The notes beneath the pieces are model-generated. The model worked only from the letters and a program-made list of their open reading frames with translations, had not been told where the DNA came from and searched no databases. 64,000 nucleotides of DNA from positions 1 to 64,000 of the forward strand of contig NZ_RAPN01000005.1 of the NCBI RefSeq assembly GCF_003610535.1, in the 5' to 3' direction. This stretch comes from Mangrovibacterium diazotrophicum (lineage in GTDB: Bacteria > Bacteroidota > Bacteroidia > Bacteroidales > Prolixibacteraceae). Positions 18,463 to 32,455 of this stretch are shown piece after piece. Position numbers and translations under genes: made by a program. Positions within the stretch are counted from its first letter, which is position 1, and every line of letters starts with the position of its first letter.

Positions 18463-19815
18463 ATGTCAAAGCATTTTAAACTAAAACGCGGATTGGATAT
18501 CCGGTTAAAAGGTGCTGCCGAAGCCACTCTTGAGGTTGCTCCAGCCCCTGTAACCGTAGCCCTTAAGCCAATCGATTTTCCAGGCTTAACTCCAAAATTA
18601 AGTGTGAAGGCTGACGCCCAGGTAAAAGCTGGTGATGCCCTGTTTTTCGACAAATACAATCCTGAAATTTTATTTACTTCTCCGGTGAGCGGAACCGTTA
18701 AGGCGGTGAATCGCGGAGAGCGTCGTAAAATTCTGGAAGTAATTGTTGAAGCAGACGGCAAAAACGAATTCGTTTCGTTCTCACAAGCTGATCCCCTGAA
18801 ACTGTCTCGGGAGAAAATTACAGAACAGCTGCTTACCTCCGGCCTGTGGCCATTCTTCAAACAACGTCCTTACGGCACTTTAGCCAAACCTAGTGATCAA
18901 CCAAAAAATATTTTCATCTCGGGATTTGATTCCAGCCCTTTGGCACCTGACTATGAATTTATTTTTAAGAACGACATTTCTGCTATCCAAACAGGGATCA
19001 ATGCACTGAGCAAACTGACTGACGGTAAAGTTTACTTCGGTCTTCCAGGCAAAGTATCCAACAGCATTTTTGCTGGTTTGAAAAACGCAGAACTGAATAC
19101 TTTCAGCGGCCCTCACCCGGCTGGCAACGTTGGTATTCAAATTCACAAAGTTGCTCCGGTCAACAAAGGTGAAGTTGTTTGGACAATCTCTGTTCAGGCT
19201 GTTGCCTTCATCGGCCGCCTGTTCGAAACCGGAAAACTTGATCTGAGCAAAACCATTGCTTTAGCCGGTTCTGAAGTTAAAGCACCAAAATACGTAAAAA
19301 CAATCCAGGGAGCTTTGGTTGGTAGCCTTGTAAAAGGTAAAACCAAACAAGAAGGCAACGAACGGATCATCAGCGGAACGGTTCTTACCGGAACCAAAGT
19401 TGAAGCCGACGACTACCTTGGATTCTACGACCAGCAAATTTCCGTTATTCCGGAAGGCGACCATTACGAGTTTATGGGTTGGGCCGAACCTGGTTTCGGA
19501 AAATACTCTGCTTCAAAAGCATTCTTCTCCAGTTTATTCCCGAAAAAAGAATATGTATTGGATGCCAACATGAACGGTAGCGAACGTGCTTACGTTGTAA
19601 CCGGCCAGTACGAAAAATTCTTACCCATGGATATCCTGCCGGTTTACCTGATCAAAGCGATCCTGGCAAACGATATCGACAAAATGGAACAACTCGGTAT
19701 TTACGAGGTGGTAGAAGAAGATCTTGCCCTGTGTGAATATGCTTGTACTTCGAAAATCAAAGTACAGGAAATCTTGCGCCAAGGTCTTGATGTCATGGTA
19801 AAAGAAGTGGGATAA
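18463..19815 (+). CDS. nqrA: Na+-translocating NADH:quinone reductase subunit A
   Basis: 450 residues from the ATG at 18463; a longer frame from 18367 would cover the promoter. NqrA is the peripheral cytoplasmic subunit of the Na+ pump, implicated in quinone binding. Visible family phrases: HFKLKRGLDIRLKGAAEA at the start, LFFDKYNPEILFTSPVSGTV (biotinyl-like domain) and GPHPAGNVGIQIHKVAPVNK. First gene of a complete nqrABCDEF operon with gaps of 6-29 bases. Confidence 0.96.
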   Translation: MSKHFKLKRGLDIRLKGAAEATLEVAPAPVTVALKPIDFPGLTPKLSVKADAQVKAGDALFFDKYNPEILFTSPVSGTVKAVNRGERRKILEVIVEADGKNEFVSFSQADPLKLSREKITEQLLTSGLWPFFKQRPYGTLAKPSDQPKNIFISGFDSSPLAPDYEFIFKNDISAIQTGINALSKLTDGKVYFGLPGKVSNSIFAGLKNAELNTFSGPHPAGNVGIQIHKVAPVNKGEVVWTISVQAVAFIGRLFETGKLDLSKTIALAGSEVKAPKYVKTIQGALVGSLVKGKTKQEGNERIISGTVLTGTKVEADDYLGFYDQQISVIPEGDHYEFMGWAEPGFGKYSASKAFFSSLFPKKEYVLDANMNGSERAYVVTGQYEKFLPMDILPVYLIKAILANDIDKMEQLGIYEVVEEDLALCEYACTSKIKVQEILRQGLDVMVKEVG

Positions 19816-19844
19816 CAGAACGATTGCTTTAAAAAAGAAATTCA

Positions 19845-21008
19845 ATGAAAGCGATAAGAAATTTTTTCGAAAACACAAAGCCTCATGTACAGAAGGGCGC
19901 CAAGTACCATTGGTTGCACTCTACGCATGATGCGCTATTTACGCTATTCTTCGTACCGAAGAATACCTCAAAGTCGGGAACACATATCCACGACTTTATC
20001 GACCTGAAAAGAACCATGGGTATTGTTGTACTCGCCTTGGTTCCGGCATTGCTATTCGGAATGTATAACGTCGGTTACCAACACTTCGGTGCGTTGGGTG
20101 AGTTGGCAACAGCTTCATTCTTCGACCTGTTCCTGTTTGGTTTGCTGAAAGTTCTTCCGATTGTTGCCGTATCGTACATCGTTGGATTGGGTATCGAATT
20201 CATTTTCGCCCAATACCGCGGTCACGAAGTAAACGAAGGTTTCCTGGTATCGGGTCTGTTGATCCCGATGGTTATGCCGGTAAACACGCCGCTTTGGATG
20301 ATTGCCATCGCCGTTGCCTTTGCTGTAATCTTCGGTAAAGAAGTTTTCGGTGGTACTGGTATGAACATCTGGAACCCGGCTTTGGTAGCCCGTGCATTCC
20401 TGTTCTTTGCTTACCCGGGACAAATGTCAGGTGATTCTGTTTGGATCTCTGCGTCGGGTATTGAAAAAGCTGTTGACGGTTTCACCGGTGCTACTCCAAT
20501 GGCATTGGCTGCTGCCGGACACACCGACGCACTGAACACATGGAACGCATTCGTAGGTTTAATTCCCGGATCAATTGGTGAAACTTCAACCATTGCCATC
20601 CTGATCGGTGCCCTTGTGCTGATCGTTACCGGAATCGGAAGCTGGAGAATCATGTTGTCAACCGTAGCTGGTGGATTGTTCATGGGTATCCTGTTGAACA
20701 TCTTCGCCGGCGACAACGCTTACATGGCTCTTCCGTTCTACGATCACCTTATTATTGGTGGTTTTGCTTTTGGTGCTGTGTTTATGGCAACCGACCCGGT
20801 TTCTGCTGCACAAACAGTAAAAGGAAAATGGATCTACGGATTCCTGATTGGTGTATTGGCCATCCTGATTCGTGTGGTAAACCCGGCTTATCCGGAAGGA
20901 ATGATGCTGGCCATTTTATTAATGAACACCTTTGCACCGCTGATTGACCACTATGTTGTTGAAGGCAACATCAAACGGCGGTTGAAACGGGCAAAAGTAA
21001 ATGTTTAA
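19845..21008 (+). CDS. nqrB: Na+-NQR subunit B
   Basis: 387 residues, about ten membrane helices. NqrB forms the core of the Na+ channel and carries a covalently linked FMN. The flavinylation motif is visible as DGFTGATPMALA, in which the Thr receives FMN from ApbE. GTGMNIWNPALVARAFLFFA and FMATDPVSAAQT are conserved parts of the NqrB/RnfD family. The lipoprotein ApbE needed for attachment is encoded at 37541. Confidence 0.96.
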   Translation: MKAIRNFFENTKPHVQKGAKYHWLHSTHDALFTLFFVPKNTSKSGTHIHDFIDLKRTMGIVVLALVPALLFGMYNVGYQHFGALGELATASFFDLFLFGLLKVLPIVAVSYIVGLGIEFIFAQYRGHEVNEGFLVSGLLIPMVMPVNTPLWMIAIAVAFAVIFGKEVFGGTGMNIWNPALVARAFLFFAYPGQMSGDSVWISASGIEKAVDGFTGATPMALAAAGHTDALNTWNAFVGLIPGSIGETSTIAILIGALVLIVTGIGSWRIMLSTVAGGLFMGILLNIFAGDNAYMALPFYDHLIIGGFAFGAVFMATDPVSAAQTVKGKWIYGFLIGVLAILIRVVNPAYPEGMMLAILLMNTFAPLIDHYVVEGNIKRRLKRAKVNV

Positions 21009-21026
21009 CCTACAAAGACTACGATA

Positions 21027-21722
21027 ATGGACAGGAATAGTAATGTTTATACATTTATATATGCCTCGGTAATGGTTATCCTGGTTGCTGCGATCCTTTC
21101 GTTTGCAGCTTTCAACCTGAAGCCATTACAATCGAAGAATGTTGAAACGGAGAAAAAACAAAACATTCTCGCTTCTGTAAACATCGCAGCAACTGCTGTC
21201 GATGCCGAACAGATTTACTCCGAGAAAATTGTCAACTCATACATTGTGAACGCGAAAGGTGAAAAAATCGATGGAGACGCCTTTACGGTTGACATGAAAA
21301 AAGAACGTGCCAAGAAAGTCGAAGATCGCCAGTTGCCGGTTTTCGAATGCGAAATTGACGGAAGCATCAAATATATTCTGCCACTTTACGGAGCAGGTCT
21401 TTGGGGACCAATCTGGGGATATATTTCAGTGGAAAGCGATATGAACACCATTTACGGTGCGACTTTCGACCACCAGGGTGAAACTCCTGGATTGGGTGCC
21501 GAAATCTCAACCAAAGCATTCCAGGAACAATTCAAAGGCAAAACGATCTTTGATAACGACGGCAAGTTCTACTCGATCATTGTTGCCAAATCAAACGAAA
21601 CTGCACCTGCTGAACACAAAGTAGATGCTATTTCGGGGGGTACCATTACTTCTAAAGGTTTGCAGGCAATGGTACTTGAAGACCTGAGTGCATACAAAGC
21701 ATTTTTCAACCAGAAAAAATAG
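21027..21722 (+). CDS. nqrC: Na+-NQR subunit C
   Basis: 231 residues with one N-terminal membrane helix (VYTFIYASVMVILVAAILSF) and a periplasmic FMN-binding domain. The ApbE target motif appears as ISGGTITSKGLQAMV, with the second Thr as the FMN acceptor. LPLYGAGLWGPIWGYISVE and GETPGLGAEIS are conserved in NqrC. NqrC passes electrons to NqrB. Confidence 0.96.
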   Translation: MDRNSNVYTFIYASVMVILVAAILSFAAFNLKPLQSKNVETEKKQNILASVNIAATAVDAEQIYSEKIVNSYIVNAKGEKIDGDAFTVDMKKERAKKVEDRQLPVFECEIDGSIKYILPLYGAGLWGPIWGYISVESDMNTIYGATFDHQGETPGLGAEISTKAFQEQFKGKTIFDNDGKFYSIIVAKSNETAPAEHKVDAISGGTITSKGLQAMVLEDLSAYKAFFNQKK

Positions 21723-21728
21723 AAGAAG

Positions 21729-22379
21729 ATGAGCGACAAAGAAGCATTATTTTCAAAGAAAAACCTGGGTCTGCTAAGCAACCCGCTTAACAGCAATAAC
21801 CCGATTACCGTTCAGGTTTTGGGTATCTGTTCGGCGCTGGCGGTTACAGCCCAGTTGAAGCCTGCAATTGTTATGGCCATTGCCGTAACTGCCGTTGTGG
21901 CTTTCGCCAACGTAATTATTTCGCTTTTGCGTAACACCATCCCGAACCGGATTCGAATCATCGTTCAGCTGGTTGTTATTGCTGCTTTGGTAATTCTGGT
22001 TGACCAGGTATTGAAAGCTTTCGTTTACGACGTAAGTAAGCAATTATCCGTATTCGTAGGTTTGATTATTACCAACTGTATCCTGATGGGTCGTTTGGAA
22101 GCCTTCGCTTTAGGTAACAAACCATGGCCCTCATTGCTCGATGGTATCGGTAACGGTGCCGGTTATGGTGCAATCCTGGTTATTGTTGGTTTCTTCCGCG
22201 AACTGCTGGGTTCAGGTAGCTTGTTTGGTTACAAACTGATTCCTGAAAGCTGGTACATCGCCAACGGTGGTTTCTACTCAAACAACGGTATGATGATTTT
22301 GCCTCCAATGGCTTTGATTACCGTTGGTGCGATCATCTGGGTTCAGCGCAGTAAAAACCGTAAACTAATTGAAGACTAA
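21729..22379 (+). CDS. nqrD: Na+-NQR subunit D
   Basis: 216 residues, six membrane helices of the NqrD/RnfE family. [20 protein letters not shown] at the start and [19 protein letters not shown] (with the Cys involved in the intramembrane Fe-S cluster shared with NqrE) are visible. It begins 6 bases after nqrC. Confidence 0.96.
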
Positions 22380-22405
22380 TTCAGAAATTCAATCAAAGAT
22401 ACGAT

Positions 22406-23023
22406 ATGGAAAATTTGATAAATATATTCGTCAAGTCGATCTTCATTGAAAACATGGTGTTCGCATACTTCCTGGGTATGTGTTCTTACCTTGCTGTTTC
22501 AAAATCGGTGAAGACCGCTGCCGGTTTGGGTGCCGCTGTAATTTTCGTTTTGGCGATCACACTGCCGGTAAACTACCTGCTCGAAACAAAAGTTTTGAGA
22601 GAAGGTGCCTTAACCTGGCTTGGACCTCAATTTGCAGATGTTGACCTGAGTTTCTTGTCTTTCATCATGTTCATCGCTGTTATCGCATCAATGGTACAGT
22701 TAGTTGAGATGGTTGTTGAGAAATTTGCTCCGGTATTATACACCCAATTAGGGATCTTCCTTCCGTTGATCGCTGTGAACTGTGCCATCCTCGGTGGTTC
22801 GTTGTTCATGCAACAAAAAGCGTTCAACAACATCGCCGAAGCTACTACTTACGGTGTTGGTTCAGGTATTGGTTGGTTCCTGGCAATTGTAGGTATTGCA
22901 GCTATCCGTGAAAAAACCCGCTATTCAAACGTACCGGCCCCATTGCGTGGTCTGGGTATTACGTTTATCATTACCGGATTGATGGGGATTGCTTTCATGG
23001 GATTCATGGGTATTAAACTTTAA
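22406..23023 (+). CDS. nqrE: Na+-NQR subunit E
   Basis: 205 residues, six membrane helices; paralogous in fold to NqrD (RnfA family). [20 protein letters not shown] holds the conserved Cys, and [18 protein letters not shown] holds the second. NqrD and NqrE together coordinate an Fe-S centre in the membrane that takes electrons from NqrF to NqrC. Confidence 0.96.
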
Positions 23024-23042
23024 TCTGTAAAAATTGAGGACT

Positions 23043-24314
23043 ATGATATTATTAGCAGCTCAATCAACAGTTATCCTAACCAGTGTAATCATCTTCTTGT
23101 TGATGATTGTTCTGTTGGTGGGAATCCTGTTGTTTGTCAAAAAGAAATTGACGCCATCGGGTTCTGTTAAGGTGAACCTTAACGATGGTTACATGGAAAT
23201 TGAAACGGAGCCGGGAAGTACGTTGCTGTCAACTTTGAGCAACAACAAAGTAATCCTGCCTTCAGCTTGTGGTGGTGGTGGTACCTGTGGTATGTGCCGT
23301 TGCCAGGTTGAAGAAGGTGGTGGTTCTATTCTTCCTACCGAAACCGGTTTCTTTACCCGTAAAGAACAAGCCGACAACTGGCGTCTTGGTTGCCAAGTAA
23401 AGGTAAAAGAGGATATGAAAATCCATATTCACCAGGAAGTTTTGGGTGTAAAAAAATGGGAATGCGAAGTTGTTTCGAACAACAACGTGGCCACTTACAT
23501 CAAAGAATTCGTGGTGAAATTGCCCGCAGGCGAAACATTGGATTTCAAATCAGGTGGTTATATCCAGATTGATGTTCCGAAGATTGACGTGGACTTTAAG
23601 GACATGGACGTCGACGCAGAATATCGTCCGGAATGGGAACAATTTGGTTTGTTTGACCTGAAAATGAAAAACCCGGAACCAACGTTCCGAGCGTACTCAA
23701 TGGCCAACCACCCTGCAGAAGGAAACATCATCATGTTGAACATCCGTATTGCTACGCCTCCGTTCGACCGTGTAAATGGTGGTTTTACCAAAGTAAACCC
23801 AGGGGTTTGTTCTTCGTTCATCTTCTCGCGCAAGCCGGGTGACAAAGTAACCATCTCGGGTCCTTTCGGTGAATTCTTCCTGAAAAATAACGACAGCGAA
23901 ATGATGTTCATCGGTGGTGGTGCCGGTATGGCGCCGATGCGTTCTCACTTGTTCCACTTGTTCCACACCGTGAAAGAAAGCAAGAAAAACGTGACTTTCT
24001 GGTATGGAGCCCGCTCTTGGAGAGAAGTATTCTACCACGACCAGTTCATGGAAATCGAGAAAAACTTCCCGAACTTCAAATTCCATTTGGCTCTTGATAA
24101 AGCCGATCCGGAAGCTGACAAACTGGGTATCGAATACAAAGTTGGATTCGTTCACAACGTGATTTACGACAACTACCTGCGCTCGCACGAAGAGCCGGAA
24201 GAAATCGACTTCTACATGTGTGGACCACCGATGATGAACGCGGCAGTACAAAAAATGTTATACGATTTGGGTGTACCAAACGAAAACGTACTGTTCGACG
24301 ACTTCGGAAGCTAA
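23043..24314 (+). CDS. nqrF: Na+-NQR subunit F (NADH-oxidising)
   Basis: 423 residues. One membrane helix at the start, then a plant-type 2Fe-2S domain (PSACGGGGTCGMCRCQV with a later Cys in WRLGCQV), an FAD domain (FRAYSMANHP) and an NADH domain (MMFIGGGAGMAPMRSHLFH, FYMCGPPMMNAAV). It accepts electrons from NADH. The start is ATG at 23043, preceded by GAGGA; the frame upstream begins with TTG at 23034. Last gene of the operon, followed by a terminator. Confidence 0.96.
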   Translation: MILLAAQSTVILTSVIIFLLMIVLLVGILLFVKKKLTPSGSVKVNLNDGYMEIETEPGSTLLSTLSNNKVILPSACGGGGTCGMCRCQVEEGGGSILPTETGFFTRKEQADNWRLGCQVKVKEDMKIHIHQEVLGVKKWECEVVSNNNVATYIKEFVVKLPAGETLDFKSGGYIQIDVPKIDVDFKDMDVDAEYRPEWEQFGLFDLKMKNPEPTFRAYSMANHPAEGNIIMLNIRIATPPFDRVNGGFTKVNPGVCSSFIFSRKPGDKVTISGPFGEFFLKNNDSEMMFIGGGAGMAPMRSHLFHLFHTVKESKKNVTFWYGARSWREVFYHDQFMEIEKNFPNFKFHLALDKADPEADKLGIEYKVGFVHNVIYDNYLRSHEEPEEIDFYMCGPPMMNAAVQKMLYDLGVPNENVLFDDFGS

Positions 24315-24331
24315 TCCCTTCAATATATCTG

Positions 24332-24363
24332 AAAAAGCTGTTCTGCAAAGAGCAGCTTTTTTT
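24332..24363 (+). terminator. Terminator of the nqr operon
   Basis: Stem AAGCTGTTCT / AGAGCAGCTT (one G-T pair) with a GCAA-type loop, followed by a run of T, 18 bases after the nqrF stop. Confidence 0.8.
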
Positions 24364-24474: not shown

Positions 24475-24858
24475 ATGATACGGACACCCTACTCCAAAGT
24501 GCTGGCCCTGCTGTTCATATTGACAGTAATTAGTTTAAAGGGACTAGCATGCGAAATTGAATTTACCGTTGGCGGCGAGAAGAAGGTATACAGTGCAGGC
24601 GACGTCGTCATCGTTGAACTGACCGTTGTCAATACGCACCGCGATTGTCACGAAAATATTGATGATGCCAAAATTATGGCCGACGGTTGCAAAATAGCGG
24701 CAGCCACTCCCTGGAAAGAAATTAAACCCGGCACCTACACCCGCAAACTGAAAGTCGTTGTGCTCCCCGGCAACGACATCGAATTCCAGATTGCCTGCAA
24801 ACGAACCTGCGACAAGGATGGCGGTTTCGGAAAGATAACATTGCAAAAGAAATCCTGA
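24475..24858 (+). CDS. Small secreted protein, first gene of the Fe-S operon
   Basis: 127 residues with a signal peptide (ALLFILTVISLKGLACE). The mature part is beta-rich and has five cysteines. It shares a pattern with the protein at 28482-28910: F-x-V-G-(x)4-[YF]SAGD/E-x(4)-V-x-LT. This suggests two copies of an Ig-like periplasmic domain bracketing the operon. No known family was recognised. Gene order and 18-base spacing to the next gene suggest co-transcription. Confidence 0.75.
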   Translation: MIRTPYSKVLALLFILTVISLKGLACEIEFTVGGEKKVYSAGDVVIVELTVVNTHRDCHENIDDAKIMADGCKIAAATPWKEIKPGTYTRKLKVVVLPGNDIEFQIACKRTCDKDGGFGKITLQKKS

Positions 24859-24876
24859 TCCCTAAAGCTTTTCGTG

Positions 24877-26202
24877 ATGAAGAAACCAGGGATCAAATCG
24901 TTACTCTCCTCAGTTGCACTTTTGCTACTCCAGGCTCAAGCGGCTTTGGCCAGTCTACCTGCAAACGGAATAAGCAGTTGTGCGGACTGTACTGCCTGTC
25001 CGGAAAGCTCAGGTGGAATAATCAGTTTGCCGTTTAGCGAATTTCCGTTTTTGCTATTGGTCGAAGTGGTTGTGATTTTTCTCCTCTTCCGCAGCAACAA
25101 GCTGAAAAAAACTTTTTGGGTACTGGGCCTGACTTTATTCATTGGTTTATCGGTAAGTGTTGCCGGACAAATACAGAATGGTGAAAAACAAACCGCGATC
25201 CCCAATGATACAACTGCTGAAACCACACTCTCGATTGTTGACACAACGACTTCAGAAACATTCAGCGACGATGAATTTGTTGCTGTTGATAGTGATGAAT
25301 TCCAAAGCATCGACAATTCGGACGAGTTTGTGACAGCCGATGGCGATGGAGACTTCCAGGAATTCATTGAGGAACCGGCACCTGATCAACTGATTGACGA
25401 CAACGAAATCACATCGCTGATCCGAACGATCATTGCCCTTTTTATGACCGTAATCGCCGGATTTGCCTACACCCGATTCAAAGGTCGAAAGCTTCGCTTT
25501 CTGATCCTTTTAGCTTCACTGATCTACCTCGGTTTTTACAGTTCTGCCTGTCCCTGCATGATTTCCAGCTTTCAGAACCTGATTTTGATTTCGCTCGGCG
25601 AGCCCACCCGATGGGTAACATTGATCTGGTTCCTCGGGTTATTGCCAATCACTTATATCTTCGGAAAAGTCTGGTGCGGATGGGTTTGCCACCTTGGCGC
25701 GCTGCAGGAATTCATTTATCGTCCCGGCCTGTTTAAAGGTCTTCAAAGCGTAAAAGCACAACGCGTGCTAAAGATTATTCAATACATTGCGTTAATTGCC
25801 TTGGTCCTTCAGCTTCTCATCACCCGCACCAACCTGTTCATCAAAATCGATCCGTTCAAGGTCGCTTTCAACTTGTTCTCCGTGAATATTACCGGCTACG
25901 TTCTGCTGGCAATTTTACTGATCAGTTCACTGCTCATTTACCGGCCTTTCTGCCGCGCGATCTGCCCAATCGGCTTAGTACTCGGCTGGATTGAAAAAAT
26001 ACCGGGAGCTTCGCGTTTGCAAATCACACCATCGTGCAAAAGCTGCAAACAGTGTGTGAAAGTTTGTGATTCGAATGCCATTTCATCCTGTGACGGACAA
26101 TATATCATCGACCAGGAGAATTGTATCCGCTGTGGGAATTGCCTGGATACCTGCCGCTTCGATGCCGTTGAGAAGAATAGAAAATCAAGAAAAGAGAAAT
26201 AG
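24877..26202 (+). CDS. NapH/NosR-like membrane ferredoxin with acidic periplasmic-type linker
   Basis: 441 residues from the ATG at 24877. A signal-like N terminus is followed by a Cys cluster (CADCTAC, near residue 36), two membrane helices, and a long acidic linker rich in DEF repeats (about 130-170). The C-terminal half has about five helices with paired motifs typical of NapH/NosR/CcoG proteins (KVWCGWVCHLGALQE and YRPFCRAICPIGLV), then two [4Fe-4S] motifs: CKSCKQCVKVCDSNAI and CIRCGNCLDTCRFDA. Such proteins move electrons between quinol and periplasmic partners. Here the likely partner is the polyferredoxin two genes downstream (inference). Confidence 0.85.
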   Translation: MKKPGIKSLLSSVALLLLQAQAALASLPANGISSCADCTACPESSGGIISLPFSEFPFLLLVEVVVIFLLFRSNKLKKTFWVLGLTLFIGLSVSVAGQIQNGEKQTAIPNDTTAETTLSIVDTTTSETFSDDEFVAVDSDEFQSIDNSDEFVTADGDGDFQEFIEEPAPDQLIDDNEITSLIRTIIALFMTVIAGFAYTRFKGRKLRFLILLASLIYLGFYSSACPCMISSFQNLILISLGEPTRWVTLIWFLGLLPITYIFGKVWCGWVCHLGALQEFIYRPGLFKGLQSVKAQRVLKIIQYIALIALVLQLLITRTNLFIKIDPFKVAFNLFSVNITGYVLLAILLISSLLIYRPFCRAICPIGLVLGWIEKIPGASRLQITPSCKSCKQCVKVCDSNAISSCDGQYIIDQENCIRCGNCLDTCRFDAVEKNRKSRKEK

Positions 26203-26206
26203 ATTC

Positions 26207-27475
26207 ATGAGCAAAATCAAAACCATCATCATAGCGCTGCTTTGCTTCTGGACATCACATAGCTTTGCGCAATGGGAATGCCGGAGCCACCTGGCCAGCA
26301 ACCTGAAACCACTGTACGAGAATTCGAACCTGAGCTGGGCAGCCGAACTGGAGGCCAGTGGCGGCTACCTCACAAACAGCTATATCGGTAACGGCATGGC
26401 TTTCCTCGGAGCAGACCTTACCTTTAACCGCGTGCAGTTTTATGCAGAAGGAGCCTACAAATACTGGTACAACCAAGACCTCGACCTGGATGAAACCTTC
26501 ACCAAAAGCCGCTTTGGCTTGCGCGAATTGTCAGCCAGCTACTTCTCTAACAATTTCAACCTTCGGCTTGGGCTGCACCAAATCCAGGCTGGCGATTTCT
26601 TCCTGCTAAATGAAAGAGCATTGGGCGCAAGTTTCAATTATTCGGCATCGAACACCAAATTGGTGCTGGCAACCGGAACCGTTACCAAAGACTTTTCGCG
26701 AAACGGAATATTTTGCTCAACGGCCTATATTTATGACATTGTACCGACCCGAACGCCAACGGCCGGAACTGATTTTGGCGAAACCAACTTCGCTACCCTC
26801 TCTTTTCAAAAAGACCTTTCGCACAAACCGACAAAAGCATCAAGCTCGTCGGAGGATGAGTTTGAAACCTTTGATGAGTTCACCGATTTTGATGAAAGCT
26901 CGAAATCAAATCCATTTGGATTCGCTTCCTATGGCGGAATCATCTACAGCGAATTCGGATCATTCTACGACAATCCGCTGATTGATTTCGGGTTGAATAC
27001 AGCGATCAACCTCGGCCCAATCGGTACAGCTAAAGCTGAAGGAATTTACCAATTGGGAAACGACAACAAAGCCTGGATTCTTTTTGCACAGCTGGAAAAG
27101 GAATTTCAATCCAAATCGGGCAACCTGACAACCTTGCAAGCAACTTACCTCACCAAACATGATATTGGCGAATCGACAGCCAGCCTCCCCCGTTTTTCAA
27201 ACCTGATCCTCGGCGAAGTATTTCGCATGGATCTGGTGGATTTGCCGTTGATTAATGCGTCGCTCAAACAACAGTTTACCAACAGCGAGCTGAGTTTTAA
27301 ACTTCAATACACGCAACAGCTGAAAGCTGAACAGCTGAAAGAGCTTGACTTCTCGGTTGGCAAGTTCTACCTCAAAAAACATTTGAGGTTAACCGCAATA
27401 ACCGGGGTCATGAATTCAGATGATTTAAACGAGTGGGCAAAACTTGCCCGCCTTGAAATGAGAGTATTTTTCTAA
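26207..27475 (+). CDS. Predicted outer-membrane beta-barrel protein with acidic DEF insert
   Basis: 422 residues from the ATG at 26207; the frame extends upstream to 26066 but overlaps the previous gene. A signal peptide ends at SHSFAQ. The rest is made of alternating amphipathic strands with aromatic girdle residues and a terminal Phe (LEMRVFF), as in outer-membrane barrels. Residues about 211-235 form an acidic loop (SSEDEFETFDEFTDFDESS) like the linker in the preceding protein. Co-occurrence in an Fe-S operon suggests a porin-like sheath or metal/substrate channel. No known family was recognised with certainty. Confidence 0.75.
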   Translation: MSKIKTIIIALLCFWTSHSFAQWECRSHLASNLKPLYENSNLSWAAELEASGGYLTNSYIGNGMAFLGADLTFNRVQFYAEGAYKYWYNQDLDLDETFTKSRFGLRELSASYFSNNFNLRLGLHQIQAGDFFLLNERALGASFNYSASNTKLVLATGTVTKDFSRNGIFCSTAYIYDIVPTRTPTAGTDFGETNFATLSFQKDLSHKPTKASSSSEDEFETFDEFTDFDESSKSNPFGFASYGGIIYSEFGSFYDNPLIDFGLNTAINLGPIGTAKAEGIYQLGNDNKAWILFAQLEKEFQSKSGNLTTLQATYLTKHDIGESTASLPRFSNLILGEVFRMDLVDLPLINASLKQQFTNSELSFKLQYTQQLKAEQLKELDFSVGKFYLKKHLRLTAITGVMNSDDLNEWAKLARLEMRVFF

Positions 27476-27487
27476 AAACACGACGAT

Positions 27488-28501
27488 ATGGAAAAGAGTA
27501 ATCGCAGAAAATTTATCCGTCAATCCTTGTTACTCGTCGGAGCAGCAGGCCTGACATCCCATTTTTTAAGTTCTTGTGATGCCGATTTCTACAAAGGCTT
27601 GCGGGTAATTACCGACGATTGCACCTCGTGCGGCGATTGTCTTGAAGTGTGCGAATACGAAGCGATTTCGCTGGAAGAAGCCGTTTATACTATCGACAGC
27701 AACACCTGCACCGAATGTAAGCAATGTGTCAGCGTTTGCGATGTTGCTGCCATATCAATTCCGGGAGTGACCTACACCATTAGCTCCAGCAAATGCACTG
27801 CCTGCGAAAAGTGTGAAGATGCCTGTCCCGAAAACGCCATCACCATTGATGCCGCGGCATCGGTGAGCAGCTATTCCATCACTAAAAGCAAGTGCGTTGG
27901 CTGCGGCGATTGTGTTACGGCCTGCCAAAACGAAGGAAATGCAATTAGCTATGTTGTATCTGTTTATTCTGTGGGCAGCAATTGCCACGGCTGTGTGCAA
28001 AAATGCTCCTCGGCCTGCAACTACGGTGCCATCTCGAAGGTGAATAACAAATCATCTATCAGCACCTCCGCCTGTGTGAAATGTGGCAAGTGCCTCTCAG
28101 CCTGTCCCCACAACGCCATATCAAAAGCCTACGTGACAATCAGCTCTTCAGCTTGTACAAATTGCGGAGCCTGTTACACCGCCTGTACCCACAGTGCGGT
28201 GAGTAAAAGTACAACCGGCAGTACGACAAAAGTTACCACCATCGATCAAACCAAATGTACGCAATGCGGCGATTGCTATGCTGTTTGCGGCGAGGATGCC
28301 ATCGTTGAAACGACAAGTGGTGTTGACACGCCGACTATTGACACCAGCCTTTGCACCGCCTGCGGAGCCTGCGTGTTGGCATGTTCCGAAGTGAATGCGA
28401 TTGATGTTGAGAGCAGCCCGGCGGTAATTGATGAAGCCAGCTGCATGATTTGTGGAAAATGTATTACCGTTTGCCCGTATGATGCGATCGAATACGTTTA
28501 G
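27488..28501 (+). CDS. Tat-exported lipoprotein polyferredoxin with ten Fe-S cluster motifs
   Basis: 337 residues. The N terminus combines a twin-arginine signal (NRRKFIRQSLLLVGAAGL) with a lipobox (LSSC, Cys near residue 30), so it should be exported folded and lipid-anchored. The remainder holds ten four-cysteine motifs: nine CX2CX2CX3C and one CX2CX3CX3C (CHGCVQKCSSAC). They are separated by Ser/Thr-rich strands at roughly 30-residue spacing. If all are filled, the protein carries up to ten [4Fe-4S] clusters, enough to form an electron wire. No catalytic domain is visible. It begins 12 bases after the barrel gene; neighbours on both sides are also envelope proteins. Confidence 0.9.
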   Translation: MEKSNRRKFIRQSLLLVGAAGLTSHFLSSCDADFYKGLRVITDDCTSCGDCLEVCEYEAISLEEAVYTIDSNTCTECKQCVSVCDVAAISIPGVTYTISSSKCTACEKCEDACPENAITIDAAASVSSYSITKSKCVGCGDCVTACQNEGNAISYVVSVYSVGSNCHGCVQKCSSACNYGAISKVNNKSSISTSACVKCGKCLSACPHNAISKAYVTISSSACTNCGACYTACTHSAVSKSTTGSTTKVTTIDQTKCTQCGDCYAVCGEDAIVETTSGVDTPTIDTSLCTACGACVLACSEVNAIDVESSPAVIDEASCMICGKCITVCPYDAIEYV

Positions 28502-28910
28502 CACTGCCTTCCGAAAACTAGCCCTTTCACTCCTGCTGATCGGACTGGCTGGATTAACGGATTCGGCCCTTGCGCAAAGTTCGAAGACCAAAAATCCGAT
28601 CCGGTTTTCGTTTGAAATTGTCGGCAACCGGAAAGACGCTTTTTCTGCAGGTGAGACAATTGATGTCAGACTTACTGCAATTCAATTGGACCGATCTTGT
28701 ACACAGGGAATCGAGAAGACACGAATCTTTCTAAAAGGTTTGAAATCGATTCACCAAAATTCGTGGATCGAAAATAAAGATGGAAGTTGGGAAAAAGTCA
28801 TCACAGTACTGGTCAACGAAAAGGGCAAAGAGCTACAAATTACCGCCTACCACGAAAGTGACGCGGGCAAAACTGTTGAAATCTTCAACCTTAAAAGAAA
28901 AGAATCATGA
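28482..28910 (+). CDS. Small secreted protein, paralogue of the first gene of the operon
   Basis: 142 residues from the second of two tandem ATGs (28479, 28482). The gene overlaps the polyferredoxin end by 20 bases in another frame. It has a signal peptide (ALSLLLIGLAGLTDSALAQ). The mature domain (FSFEIVGNRKDAFSAGETID) resembles the product of 24475-24858, but without its cysteines. A beta-sandwich periplasmic accessory role is possible. Its stop overlaps the start of the permease gene (ATGA). Confidence 0.75.
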   Translation: MRSNTFSTAFRKLALSLLLIGLAGLTDSALAQSSKTKNPIRFSFEIVGNRKDAFSAGETIDVRLTAIQLDRSCTQGIEKTRIFLKGLKSIHQNSWIENKDGSWEKVITVLVNEKGKELQITAYHESDAGKTVEIFNLKRKES

Positions 28911-29929
28911 GCTTCATTCAATCAATAGAAATCCCGAAACGACAGAATAACGGAATCAATATTCCCAAAATAGCAATCTGGTTCATCCTCGCAGTTTTGC
29001 TGGTCGACACTATCTATTCGAGCTGGTACGGCATTCATTACAATACCCGCGAAAAATGCGCAATCTACAAATTTCTGCCATCGTGGCTGTTTCTGATCAA
29101 CGAATACCTGCTGGAATTGTTCCTGGTGGTAGTTGCCGGAACCTTTGCCGGCACCCTAACAGAGAAATACTTTACCAAATACCGCAAGTTCATTCCCAAA
29201 ACTCAGTTGAGCGCTTTTGTTTACGCGTCGGTCATCCCTGTCTGCTCGTGCAGCGCCATTCCCCTGATTGAATCGATGAAAAGCAGGCTCCCCCTGCGCA
29301 CCATCATCACTTTTGTGATTGCGGCTCCCCTGCTAAACCCCTACATCATCTTTCTTTCTTATTCCGTACTGGGTATTGAATACGGCAGCCTTCGGATTCT
29401 GGGATCATTCATTGTTGCCATCGCTGTCGGCTTGGTTGTGGATCTGGCCTACCACCGGATCGGCAAGCCTGAAATTGGCATTTACAAAAGTTGCGACACG
29501 GCCTCCTGCGGCGCGGTAATCGGGAAAGACGTTTACCGGAAAACATGGGTACTCGTAGGTAAAATAGCGCCCTATATTCTGATCGCCGGTATTTTGGGCT
29601 TGCTGTTTGAGCTAACCGGCCCTTTAAAACTGATCGACCAGTTGCCATTGAGCGGAGGGATCACCAGCCTTATTTTGCTCACCGGAATCGGAACGGCTAT
29701 CTACCTTTGCAATGGTGCCGACATTCTGTTCCTGGCGCCAATCCTCCAGTACACCGATCTTGGCATGGGCGATGCTTTGGCATTTTCCCTGAGTTCAACG
29801 GCTGTTTGTGCCAGCTCCATTATCATGCTTTCGCGCTTTTTAGGTAAAAAACTCACCTTCGTTCTCACCGCTGCAACCATCGTCATGATCCTCATTTTTT
29901 CCTTTGCTGTCAATTTTATTCTCCAATAA
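28907..29929 (+). CDS. COG0701 (UPF0718/DUF318) permease
   Basis: 340 residues, about eight to ten membrane helices. The family's conserved cysteine motif is present in PVCSCSAIPLIESMKSR, followed by FVIAAPLLNPYIIFLSY. A second Cys pair occurs in a loop (KSCDTASCGAV). Some relatives (ArsP) export trivalent organoarsenicals, while others have no known substrate. The 4-base overlap with the preceding gene shows it belongs to the Fe-S operon. Substrate unknown. Confidence 0.88.
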   Translation: MSFIQSIEIPKRQNNGINIPKIAIWFILAVLLVDTIYSSWYGIHYNTREKCAIYKFLPSWLFLINEYLLELFLVVVAGTFAGTLTEKYFTKYRKFIPKTQLSAFVYASVIPVCSCSAIPLIESMKSRLPLRTIITFVIAAPLLNPYIIFLSYSVLGIEYGSLRILGSFIVAIAVGLVVDLAYHRIGKPEIGIYKSCDTASCGAVIGKDVYRKTWVLVGKIAPYILIAGILGLLFELTGPLKLIDQLPLSGGITSLILLTGIGTAIYLCNGADILFLAPILQYTDLGMGDALAFSLSSTAVCASSIIMLSRFLGKKLTFVLTAATIVMILIFSFAVNFILQ

Positions 29930-30053: not shown

Positions 30054-30743
30054 ATGAAGAGAGTAAGCTTATTTTTCGCGCTATCACTAGTAATTATTGT
30101 CATTCCGTCGATTCTTCACCGGGGAAAGAAGAATTCGGAGGGGACTGCGTTTGCTATCGAATCAGTTGATTCGTTGTACGTGCAGTACACGGCCCTTAAT
30201 TTGAACGGCAAACTTCCGTACGAAGTTTTTGTCCGGGCAATGGAGGGTTTCCGGAACTTTCATTTCAACAATAACCATATTCTGACGATTGTTGACTTTA
30301 CAAAATCGTCGGTAAGCAAGCGCTTTTTTGTGATTGACCTGAAAGCAAACAAATTGCTGTTCGAATGTTTGGTTGCCCACGGAAAAAATTCCGGGATCGA
30401 CTTCGCTCAACATTTTTCGAACACGGAACAATCCCTGATGAGTAGTCCCGGTTTTTACACCACCGCCGAAACTTACCAGGGCAAACATGGCTATTCGCTC
30501 CGTCTGGATGGATTGGAAAAAGGAATTAACGATCGTGCACGAGCGCGGGCAATTGTGATTCACGCAGCGGATTACGTGAGCGAACAATTCATCCAACGCA
30601 TGGGACGTTTGGGACGAAGCTGGGGATGCCCCGCTTTACCTCCGAGTTTGAACAAGGAAATTATCGATTCCATCAAAAACGGAAGCTGCCTGTACATTCA
30701 CACCAACGACAAGTCGTACCTGGCAGACTCGCCGGTGAATTGA
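30054..30743 (+). CDS. Murein L,D-transpeptidase catalytic domain protein (YkuD_2 type)
   Basis: 229 residues with a membrane anchor or signal at the N terminus. FVIDLKANKLLFECLVAHGK opens the catalytic domain. IVIHAADYVSEQF supplies the conserved His and GRSWGCPALP the catalytic Cys. It would act on peptidoglycan stem peptides in the periplasm. It is convergent with a second, larger L,D-transpeptidase gene 11 bases away. Confidence 0.88.
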   Translation: MKRVSLFFALSLVIIVIPSILHRGKKNSEGTAFAIESVDSLYVQYTALNLNGKLPYEVFVRAMEGFRNFHFNNNHILTIVDFTKSSVSKRFFVIDLKANKLLFECLVAHGKNSGIDFAQHFSNTEQSLMSSPGFYTTAETYQGKHGYSLRLDGLEKGINDRARARAIVIHAADYVSEQFIQRMGRLGRSWGCPALPPSLNKEIIDSIKNGSCLYIHTNDKSYLADSPVN

Positions 30744-30754
30744 TCTTCCGCATC

Positions 30755-32455
30755 CTATTTCCGTTTCACGGCTTTCTGCGCTGCATTTAGTTCTGCCAAC
30801 ACCTTGGCATCGCGGCTGTATATATCGTTAAAAAAGCCGACGCCATTGCCTTCATAATAACCAGCCGTCAGGTACAGCAGCAAAACATCAATTTCTTTCT
30901 CTGGAAATACACGTTGGGTTTTTCGGGTCTCGATCACCGAATCAATTTTCTGCCGGTTCCATTCACTGCCCTCCAGTAATATTGCCGCCAAATCGAGCGG
31001 GTTTTGCGTGCGAATACAGCCGTGGCTAAACGCACGATCCTGCTTCTCGAATAAACTTTTCGAGGGTGTATCGTGAAGGAAAATAGCATATTTGTTCGGG
31101 AAAATAAACTTGACTTCGCCCAATGAATTGCCCTTGCCCGGCTTTTGACGGACCGTGTAGGGGAAGTTGCCAACGCGGACTTGACTTCGGTCAATTGAAT
31201 TAATAGGTACAAGGTTGCCACTCTGATCTATCAATTCGAAATTGTTGCGTTCCAGGTAAGTTGGATCCGACTTGATATGTGGAATGACGCTGCTTTTGAG
31301 GATTGAATACGGAACGGTCCAGGTTGGATTAAACTCTATATAATTTAATCGGGATTTAAAAACCGGTGTCTTGGTGTAGGTTCTCCCCACCTGCACATTG
31401 GTCGTAAACCGTATCGCACGATCCTCGATATAATAAGCTTTGAATGCCGGAATGTTGACGATGATGTAGCGATCAGTCAGGTCTGACACCACCCAACGCA
31501 GGCGTTCCAGGTTGACCCGCAACTTCGAGATCCGATCCTCAACCGATTCGTTTAAAGCCTGAAAAGTTGTCTTCCCGATAACACCATCCGCAGTCAGCGC
31601 ATTTTTCTGCTGAAAAGCCTTCACGTCATTCATCAACACGTCATCATAAACTGTACTTTCCATTTTACCGGTATCGGTCAACTCGCCTGTTTTTTGAAGA
31701 CGCTCCCGAATCAACGGAACGCGTTTATCATCCTCTCCCGGCTTTAACACCTGGGCATCAGCTATCTTTTTCCATCCGCCATTCAATGCCAGGGGTTGGT
31801 ACTCTTCCAGCAAATCCATCAACTGACGGTACAATTTCATATCCGGTCGCAGGTTGTGCAAAGCATCTGCCACGGTTCCGTTTGCGATTGCTTGCTCCAA
31901 CTTGTTAGGTGCATCTTCTTTAAAACCTCGGAAACTATAATTCCAGTGCGGATCCAGCGACTCCGGATCAACCTTTCCTGCCATTAAATGATATGCGTAC
32001 AACAGAACGGCGTCCGTCATCAAAATATCGAAGCCGGCCACCCAGGCATAATCAATTTCCTGTCCGGCGGGCCTGTCGCGAATCATCTCTACAAGCTTGC
32101 GAATTGCATCAGCATGGTAGTCGTTGGGCAGCAGTCCATCCTGCCAGGCGTCGTGAAGCGCATCAACGGCATCCATCAGCGTTTGGTAGTTACCCCAAGC
32201 CGGACGATAATCCCTGTTTTTATAGAATTCGGGAAGAACGGAATCCGAATAAACCGTCTCTCCTTCTATCTTCAGCGAATGCCCGTCCGCCATTTTCGTG
32301 ATCACGTCACGAATCCAAAAACTAATCTTATCGGGATTTGAATACACTAAATCATGAGCCTTTCGGTTGTCTTCAGCCTTCGACTGAGCCACTACAATTT
32401 GAACTCCCAATAAAAAAATGGCGAGAATGAACAAGGCGCGAGAATGAATTTTCAT
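30755..32455 (-). CDS. L,D-transpeptidase, YcbB/LdtD-like
   Basis: 566 residues with a signal peptide (ALFILAIFLLGVQIVVAQ). After a helical scaffold domain comes a peptidoglycan-binding motif (DVKAFQQKNALTADGVIGKT, near residue 280) and a YkuD catalytic domain with IFLHDTPSKSLFEKQDRAFSHGC followed by IRTQNP (conserved His, Ser, Cys and Arg). The order scaffold, PG-binding, YkuD is that of LdtD/YcbB, which makes 3-3 cross-links in peptidoglycan. It is convergent with a smaller YkuD_2 protein. Confidence 0.92.
   Translation of the reverse strand: MKIHSRALFILAIFLLGVQIVVAQSKAEDNRKAHDLVYSNPDKISFWIRDVITKMADGHSLKIEGETVYSDSVLPEFYKNRDYRPAWGNYQTLMDAVDALHDAWQDGLLPNDYHADAIRKLVEMIRDRPAGQEIDYAWVAGFDILMTDAVLLYAYHLMAGKVDPESLDPHWNYSFRGFKEDAPNKLEQAIANGTVADALHNLRPDMKLYRQLMDLLEEYQPLALNGGWKKIADAQVLKPGEDDKRVPLIRERLQKTGELTDTGKMESTVYDDVLMNDVKAFQQKNALTADGVIGKTTFQALNESVEDRISKLRVNLERLRWVVSDLTDRYIIVNIPAFKAYYIEDRAIRFTTNVQVGRTYTKTPVFKSRLNYIEFNPTWTVPYSILKSSVIPHIKSDPTYLERNNFELIDQSGNLVPINSIDRSQVRVGNFPYTVRQKPGKGNSLGEVKFIFPNKYAIFLHDTPSKSLFEKQDRAFSHGCIRTQNPLDLAAILLEGSEWNRQKIDSVIETRKTQRVFPEKEIDVLLLYLTAGYYEGNGVGFFNDIYSRDAKVLAELNAAQKAVKRK

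Follow-up and report, generated by a model that had tools for sequence, protein, structure and literature searches.

The known Gram-negative outer-membrane electron conduits rely on multihaem cytochromes, and outer-membrane barrels of the Mtr and Pcc type have approximately 26 strands. NapH, a membrane protein with four transmembrane domains and its iron–sulfur (Fe–S) clusters on the cytoplasmic side, pairs with the periplasmic protein NapG, which depends on twin-arginine translocation (Tat) (PMC5449189), and NapH-like proteins serve as modules in extracytosolic electron transfer (PMC8238504). We have analysed a stretch of 64 000 nucleotides from Mangrovibacterium diazotrophicum (contig NZ_RAPN01000005.1), here called the window, in which six open reading frames (ORFs; g1–g6) at 24475–29929 on the forward strand encode a NapH/NosR-like membrane ferredoxin, a Tat-signal polyferredoxin, a predicted outer-membrane barrel, two small secreted proteins and a permease. 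The gene set is real, conserved and so far undescribed, and in some Bacteroidota it probably carries electrons from the inner to the outer membrane by Fe–S clusters alone; the description that we favour, with some reserve, is that of a haem-free electron exporter on the NapGH plan that reaches as far as the outer membrane. A search of the open-access literature, with preprints and most subscription journals outside its scope, found no published Fe–S-only outer-membrane conduit.

The six tightly spaced genes described in an earlier note on this DNA were recovered at the same positions, with gaps of 15, 4 and 12 bases (g1–g2, g2–g3 and g3–g4, respectively); the start of g5 overlaps the end of g4, g5 and g6 share an ATGA overlap, and these short gaps and overlaps make a single transcription unit likely. 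The note had also remarked that no CXXCH haem motif was to be seen and that every redox site would be Fe–S. A motif scan found no CXXCH in any of the six proteins, in which all visible redox sites are indeed Fe–S; the nearest thing to a haem motif is the CGWVCH of g2, which is of the form CX3CH.

The NapH/NosR-like character of g2 (24874–26202, forward strand) is borne out by matches to the Pfam families Fer4_5 (E = 1.7e-15) and Fer4. Hydropathy and the positive-inside pattern place CX3CH and CX3CP motifs, lying in transmembrane helices, and two C-terminal 4Fe–4S motifs on the cytoplasmic side, and a CPCM motif and an acidic tail rich in Asp-Glu-Phe (DEF) on the periplasmic side; the cysteines are invariant in an alignment across 12 relatives. 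As in NapGH, a membrane ferredoxin with CX3C and cytoplasmic 4Fe–4S motifs is thus accompanied by a Tat-exported periplasmic polyferredoxin, and by this homology the expected role of g2 is to pass electrons to an exported ferredoxin (PMC5449189). However, g2 lies far below the NapH family cut-offs (72.9 against 213.05 bits for TIGR02163, and 61.0 against 234 for NF007013), carries CX3CH where NapH has the first CX3CP, and possesses the CPCM motif and the acidic periplasmic tail, while the module as a whole adds a barrel and Ig-like proteins to the NapGH plan and has no nitrate reductase. The flavinylated NapH-like systems (PMC8238504) share the modular NapH-like core, and a DUF2271 protein with a type IX tail occurs near two of our loci, but the six genes contain no Pfam match for flavin mononucleotide binding and the carrier is an Fe–S polyferredoxin. 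Near the N-terminus of g2 (window 24970–25010), the sequence SCADCTACP forms a half-ferredoxin-like CX2CX2CP on the periplasmic side, with Cys-rich variants in several relatives; judged from its sequence, it is possibly an extra metal or Fe–S site.

The ten-motif, Tat-exported lipoprotein polyferredoxin that had been proposed for g4 (27488–28501, forward strand) was likewise upheld. Pfam detects nine Fer4 stretches (E = 2.4e-49), and 40 of the 41 cysteines fall in ten cluster motifs, the remaining one belonging to the lipobox (FLSSC); the twin-arginine signal reads NRRKFIR. The motifs are spaced by 27–34 residues, like those of tandem bacterial ferredoxins, and the protein aligns with the solved polyferredoxins MvhB and FwdF, its best PDB sequence matches, which makes electron-transfer distances between the clusters plausible at the level of sequence. 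The methanogen proteins MvhB/VhuB and FwdF also have tandem 4Fe–4S motifs forming an electron chain, whereas proteins of the g4 type are exported lipoproteins with an array that can expand to either side of a constant central segment. With NapG, g4 shares the RR motif, the 4Fe–4S repeats and being encoded with its membrane partner, here g2; it differs in the lipobox and in the number of clusters. Tat and lipoprotein signals were found in 14 long and two short versions of the polyferredoxin, and the lipid anchor puts g4 at a membrane, which is most likely the outer membrane.

The number of clusters spans an approximately tenfold range among relatives (2, 10, ~16, ~20 and ~22). The long versions are highly regular: a constant centre is flanked by 29-residue repeats in the N-terminal arm and by 35-residue repeats in the C-terminal arm. 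At two related loci (L080 and L082; we number loci with L and genomes with G), the ferredoxin has just two clusters (109–133 amino acids) in an otherwise complete six-gene operon, and none was detected in several genomes with g1, g2 and g3, which does not support the fixed six-gene conduit of the earlier note. A strict end-conserved deletion as the origin of the two-cluster ferredoxin is borne out only in part by the repeat scores. At L035:4368-7921, the gene of a 723-amino-acid lipoprotein polyferredoxin with ~22 clusters, on a different contig from the g1–g2–g3 genes of the same genome, overlaps a gene for an Omp85-superfamily barrel at the latter's start; at L013:11185-13799, the polyferredoxin gene overlaps at its end with a gene for a DcuC-family carrier; and at L121:5297-6088, the gene immediately downstream of that for a 10-cluster polyferredoxin encodes a DUF2271 protein that has a type IX sorting tail and carries TGPT rather than the flavinylation motif [S/T]GA[S/T].

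No sequence family was found for g3 (26207–27475, forward strand) in Pfam, NCBIfam or PDB sequence searches, and its assignment as an outer-membrane barrel comes from structure prediction. The AlphaFold2 model, built with 15 homologues, has 18 strands (mean predicted local distance difference test score, pLDDT, 75.6; predicted template modelling score, pTM, 0.73), and its top fold matches are all solved 18-strand outer-membrane barrels (Z ~25, rmsd ~3 Å, ~310 residues), the closest being AlgE (Z 25.8, rmsd 3.2 Å, 315 residues; VIA-align) and the OprD/Occ porins. The strands alternate apolar outward and polar inward positions, and the lumen-facing positions are more conserved than the lipid-facing ones (mean entropy 1.50 against 1.97 bits). 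With OprD and AlgE, g3 thus shares the predicted fold, the 18 strands and periplasmic termini; it has no common sequence family with them, and they have no known role in electron transfer. With periplasmic termini like those of AlgE, the acidic DEF loop of g3, which joins strands 8 and 9, would face the periplasm, and loops 7-8 and 13-14, both long and conserved, would lie either outside or folded into the lumen. The mature protein has two invariant cysteines (numbered from the residue after Met), C24 of QWEC, near the mature N-terminus, and C169 of FC, in loop 7-8, and several homologues contain no others. The simplest reading of this pair is a disulfide, in a region where the model is of low confidence; if oxidized, it would join the N-terminus and extracellular loop 4 (7-8) in the lumen and may plug the barrel.

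Acidic-Phe repeats (DEFxxFDEF-like) occur both in the periplasmic tail of g2 and in the periplasmic loop of the barrel. In 10 of 12 g2 proteins, DEF is more frequent in the tail than in shuffled sequences (p ≤ 0.004), and the number of DEF motifs in g2 correlates with that in the barrel (Spearman 0.69, n = 19, uncorrected for kinship). The barrel has few or no DEF motifs where g2 is without the tail (L010 and L011) or is absent (L013, in which the DEF loop is lost). This co-variation suggests docking of g2 and the barrel, either directly or via g1.

The first gene, g1 (24475–24858, forward strand), encodes a secreted protein of 127 amino acids, predicted to be an Ig-like β-sandwich (AlphaFold2 pLDDT 84.6) and found at nearly every related locus. 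Three cysteines are invariant – the mature N-terminal Cys and those of HRxC and RxC – and their spacing is kept in 22 g1 proteins. Neither g1 nor g5 belongs to a family in Pfam, NCBIfam or PDB sequence searches; a Cupin_2 match of g1 (17.6 bits against a cut-off of 27.2) was rejected as chance. Adaptin-ear domains, which bind short acidic-aromatic peptides, are among the fold matches of g1, but the structural matches are generic Ig-like ones and we make no claim of DEF binding from them. The protein encoded by g5 (28482–28910, forward strand) is a secreted paralogue of g1, as the earlier note had proposed; it matches the g1 profile (E = 2.3e-13) and retains, in the alignment, one of the three invariant cysteines. 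The COG0701-type permease expected for g6 (28907–29929, forward strand) is confirmed by a match to ArsP_1 (81.8 bits against the Pfam gathering cut-off of 32.3), and it shares with ArsP, SaoE and SO_0444 this domain with its CSC motif, but falls below the NCBIfam equivalog cut-offs for SaoE (55.8 against 325) and SO_0444 (40.4 against 300). A permease stands in the g6 position at L008, L009, L080 and L082, and g5 and g6 are accessory genes restricted to some loci.

The distribution of the genes was examined in 294 genomes of the order to which the window belongs, many of the relatives being metagenome-assembled genomes (MAGs); absence of the polyferredoxin here means absence of a long one, two-cluster ferredoxins being indistinguishable from ordinary ones in genome searches. 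The occurrence is nested: g2 is present in 22 genomes (with a sharp gap in E-value), the barrel in 15, all with g2, and the polyferredoxin in eight, all with the barrel. Hypergeometric probabilities, which treat the genomes as independent and ignore kinship, are 3e-20 for the barrel within g2-positive genomes and 5e-12 for the polyferredoxin within barrel-positive ones. This dependence of the polyferredoxin on the barrel ties g4 to the outer membrane. In G536, g2, the barrel and the polyferredoxin are all present on different contigs, and parts of the module are likewise retained, though unlinked, in G495. A contig scan found 15 related loci in Bacteroidota, including one in a Fibrobacteres MAG and one in a Kapabacteria MAG; in phylum-wide samples of 394 genomes the window's own genome was the sole match, and a search of plasmids with the barrel gave none. 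A weak barrel match at G015/L006 (24% identity) was dropped, its neighbours being unrelated.

All six genes are common to a Sunxiuqinia MAG (L008) and Mangrovibacterium lignilyticum (L009), which are of the same GTDB genus as the window. The loci fall into four variants. Variant A is g1–g2–g3–polyferredoxin. Variant B (L080 and L082) is the six-gene type with the two-cluster ferredoxin, g1 being seen in L082 but not recovered upstream of g2 in L080. Variant C (L016, L017 and L069–L072) is g1–g2–g3 without a polyferredoxin, often with TetR and MMPL genes or beside Rnf, as in L017 and L071; in its g2 the CPC motif is gone, with PGI or CPG there instead, and CGWxCH is mostly replaced by CGWxCY. 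The order TetR–g1–g2–barrel–MMPL transporter, with the polyferredoxin absent, is seen at L016:7773-13736 and L070:2131-9123, and a third member of this clade, L072, has a truncated MMPL-like ORF. Variant D lacks the barrel but has g2, in some cases together with g1. In one instance (L083:107-3703), g1 and g2 flank a DUF5777 barrel, a DUF2271 protein (type IX sorting tail, TGAS motif) and a small lipoprotein with CXXCH, in place of the usual barrel; this arrangement is possibly a flavin/haem version of the same idea, and the open-access literature searched makes no mention of DUF5777. In the g2 tree, the polyferredoxin has been lost or reduced in several clades. The genes are kept together far beyond close kin, which supports the earlier note, but not as a fixed six.

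In the exporter that we favour, g2 would take electrons from membrane quinol (or a low-potential donor) and pass them across the inner membrane; g4 would receive them and relay them along its 4Fe–4S chain to the outer membrane, where it would work with g3, so that the electrons reach an acceptor that lies at the barrel, within it or beyond it. The DEF motifs of the g2 tail and the g3 loop may hold the inner- and outer-membrane parts together by docking, either directly or via g1, which would be a common soluble or scaffold partner, and g5 and g6 would form an optional add-on moving a small solute. Gene content, locations, Fe–S motifs, nested co-occurrence, the expandable array and DEF co-variation come from sequence, model or distribution; the quinol donor, the direction of electron flow, the docking and the final acceptor are what we infer. 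Several points weigh against this scheme. Its support is computational, drawn from sequences, single-protein models and gene distribution, and the assumption that g2 oxidizes quinol comes from homology. At L013, g1, the barrel and the polyferredoxin are found in a genome with no g2 orthologue, the only related protein being a distant NapH-like one (E = 1e-34); g2 also occurs without barrel or polyferredoxin, standing alone in six genomes; and several genomes retain g1, g2 and the barrel without a detectable long polyferredoxin, which is therefore not essential to the role of the barrel there.

A stronger version appears rather unlikely to us: a true trans-outer-membrane conduit, like MtrAB but with 4Fe–4S clusters, whose polyferredoxin is inserted into the barrel or docks there and feeds extracellular acceptors. 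MtrCAB, Pcc and the Geobacter Ext systems also tie an outer-membrane barrel genetically to a multi-cofactor carrier, but the module has a lipoprotein polyferredoxin instead of a cytochrome, no CXXCH, and an 18-strand rather than a larger barrel. The polyferredoxin never occurs without the barrel in the 294 genomes, and the conservation of lumen-facing positions is in keeping with such a conduit. Nevertheless, the lumen of 18 strands is narrow, an estimated 22–26 Å, or approximately one ferredoxin domain wide (26–28 strands would give 36–46 Å), the invariant Cys pair, if oxidized, would put the N-terminus and loop 4 inside it, and some barrels have no detected polyferredoxin or one of only two clusters. 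The threading suggested by the earlier note is thus supported only in part, with the dependence on the barrel in its favour and the strand number and the Cys pair against it. Surface lipoproteins of Bacteroidota carry an export signal, K-(D/E)2, Q-A-(D/E)2 or S-D-D-like, directly after the lipidated Cys (PMC5080379), and acidic residues resembling K-(D/E)2 follow the Cys in several polyferredoxins; the motif is clear in L013 (CKDDW) and L020 (CRKEDS) and absent in L035, L075 and L084, while the CDADFYKG of the window is weak as an export signal. In G694, a DUF2271 protein whose tail is of the type IX secretion kind is encoded just downstream of the polyferredoxin, in keeping with both this version and the exporter.

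The module might instead handle a metal, metalloid or sulfur compound reductively, with the barrel as substrate channel, reduction in the periplasm, and ArsP_1 or MMPL moving the solute across the inner membrane, a reading that we likewise regard as rather unlikely. The ArsP_1 permease and g5 occur in two separate clades of the module, TetR and an MMPL transporter in another (L016 and L070, truncated in L072), and, downstream in L010 and L011, a TonB-plug receptor together with a DUF2202 protein; in addition, the barrel fold is like that of the substrate-specific porins OprD and AlgE. However, the permease is missing from most loci with barrel and polyferredoxin, no substrate gene is common across loci, and a chain of 10–22 clusters would be needless for reducing a diffusible solute. 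A NapGH-like donor to a periplasmic reductase encoded elsewhere, with the barrel incidental, is very unlikely, because, although NapH-like systems commonly serve periplasmic oxidoreductases (PMC8238504) and g2 can stand alone, no reductase recurs beside any of ~30 loci and the polyferredoxin is tied to the barrel rather than to a reductase.

Directly upstream of g1 lies nqrABCDEF (18466–24314, forward strand), encoding a Na+-translocating NADH:quinone oxidoreductase with NqrA–F all above their NCBIfam cut-offs; as the earlier note had held, the operon is complete and feeds the quinone pool, and it is a neighbour outside the module proper. It also adjoins the module in L008 and L009. Between nqrF and g1, a hairpin resembling an intrinsic terminator (24331–24362, forward strand; a 14-pair stem followed by a T run) makes the six genes look like their own transcription unit, although terminator-like sites in the region are no commoner than in shuffled sequence. 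Right after the operon, two L,D-transpeptidase-like genes are convergent (30054–32455), the first of which (30054–30743) matches YkuD_2. The genome itself is not haem-poor, having multihaem-like CXXCH arrays outside the window; one dense array of CXXCH pairs, at G000:C1:107061-109639, is probably at least one multihaem cytochrome gene, and the organism may therefore have a haem-based route as well.

The module is a concrete and widely scattered candidate for an Fe–S-only route, in a phylum that matters both in the gut and in sediments. We think it doubtful, though conceivable, that it forms a haem-free trans-outer-membrane conduit in which a 4Fe–4S wire of adjustable length and a dedicated 18-strand barrel bring respiratory electrons to the cell surface; tentatively, such a conduit would serve Bacteroidota, and some Fibrobacteres or Kapabacteria, without multihaem cytochromes. 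If electrons do exit, the extracellular electron transfer of these organisms would escape genome surveys for multihaem cytochromes alone. Even if they stay inside, the module represents an unnamed family of envelope electron-transfer systems, with several parts of unassigned role and a polyferredoxin that varies approximately tenfold in its number of clusters.

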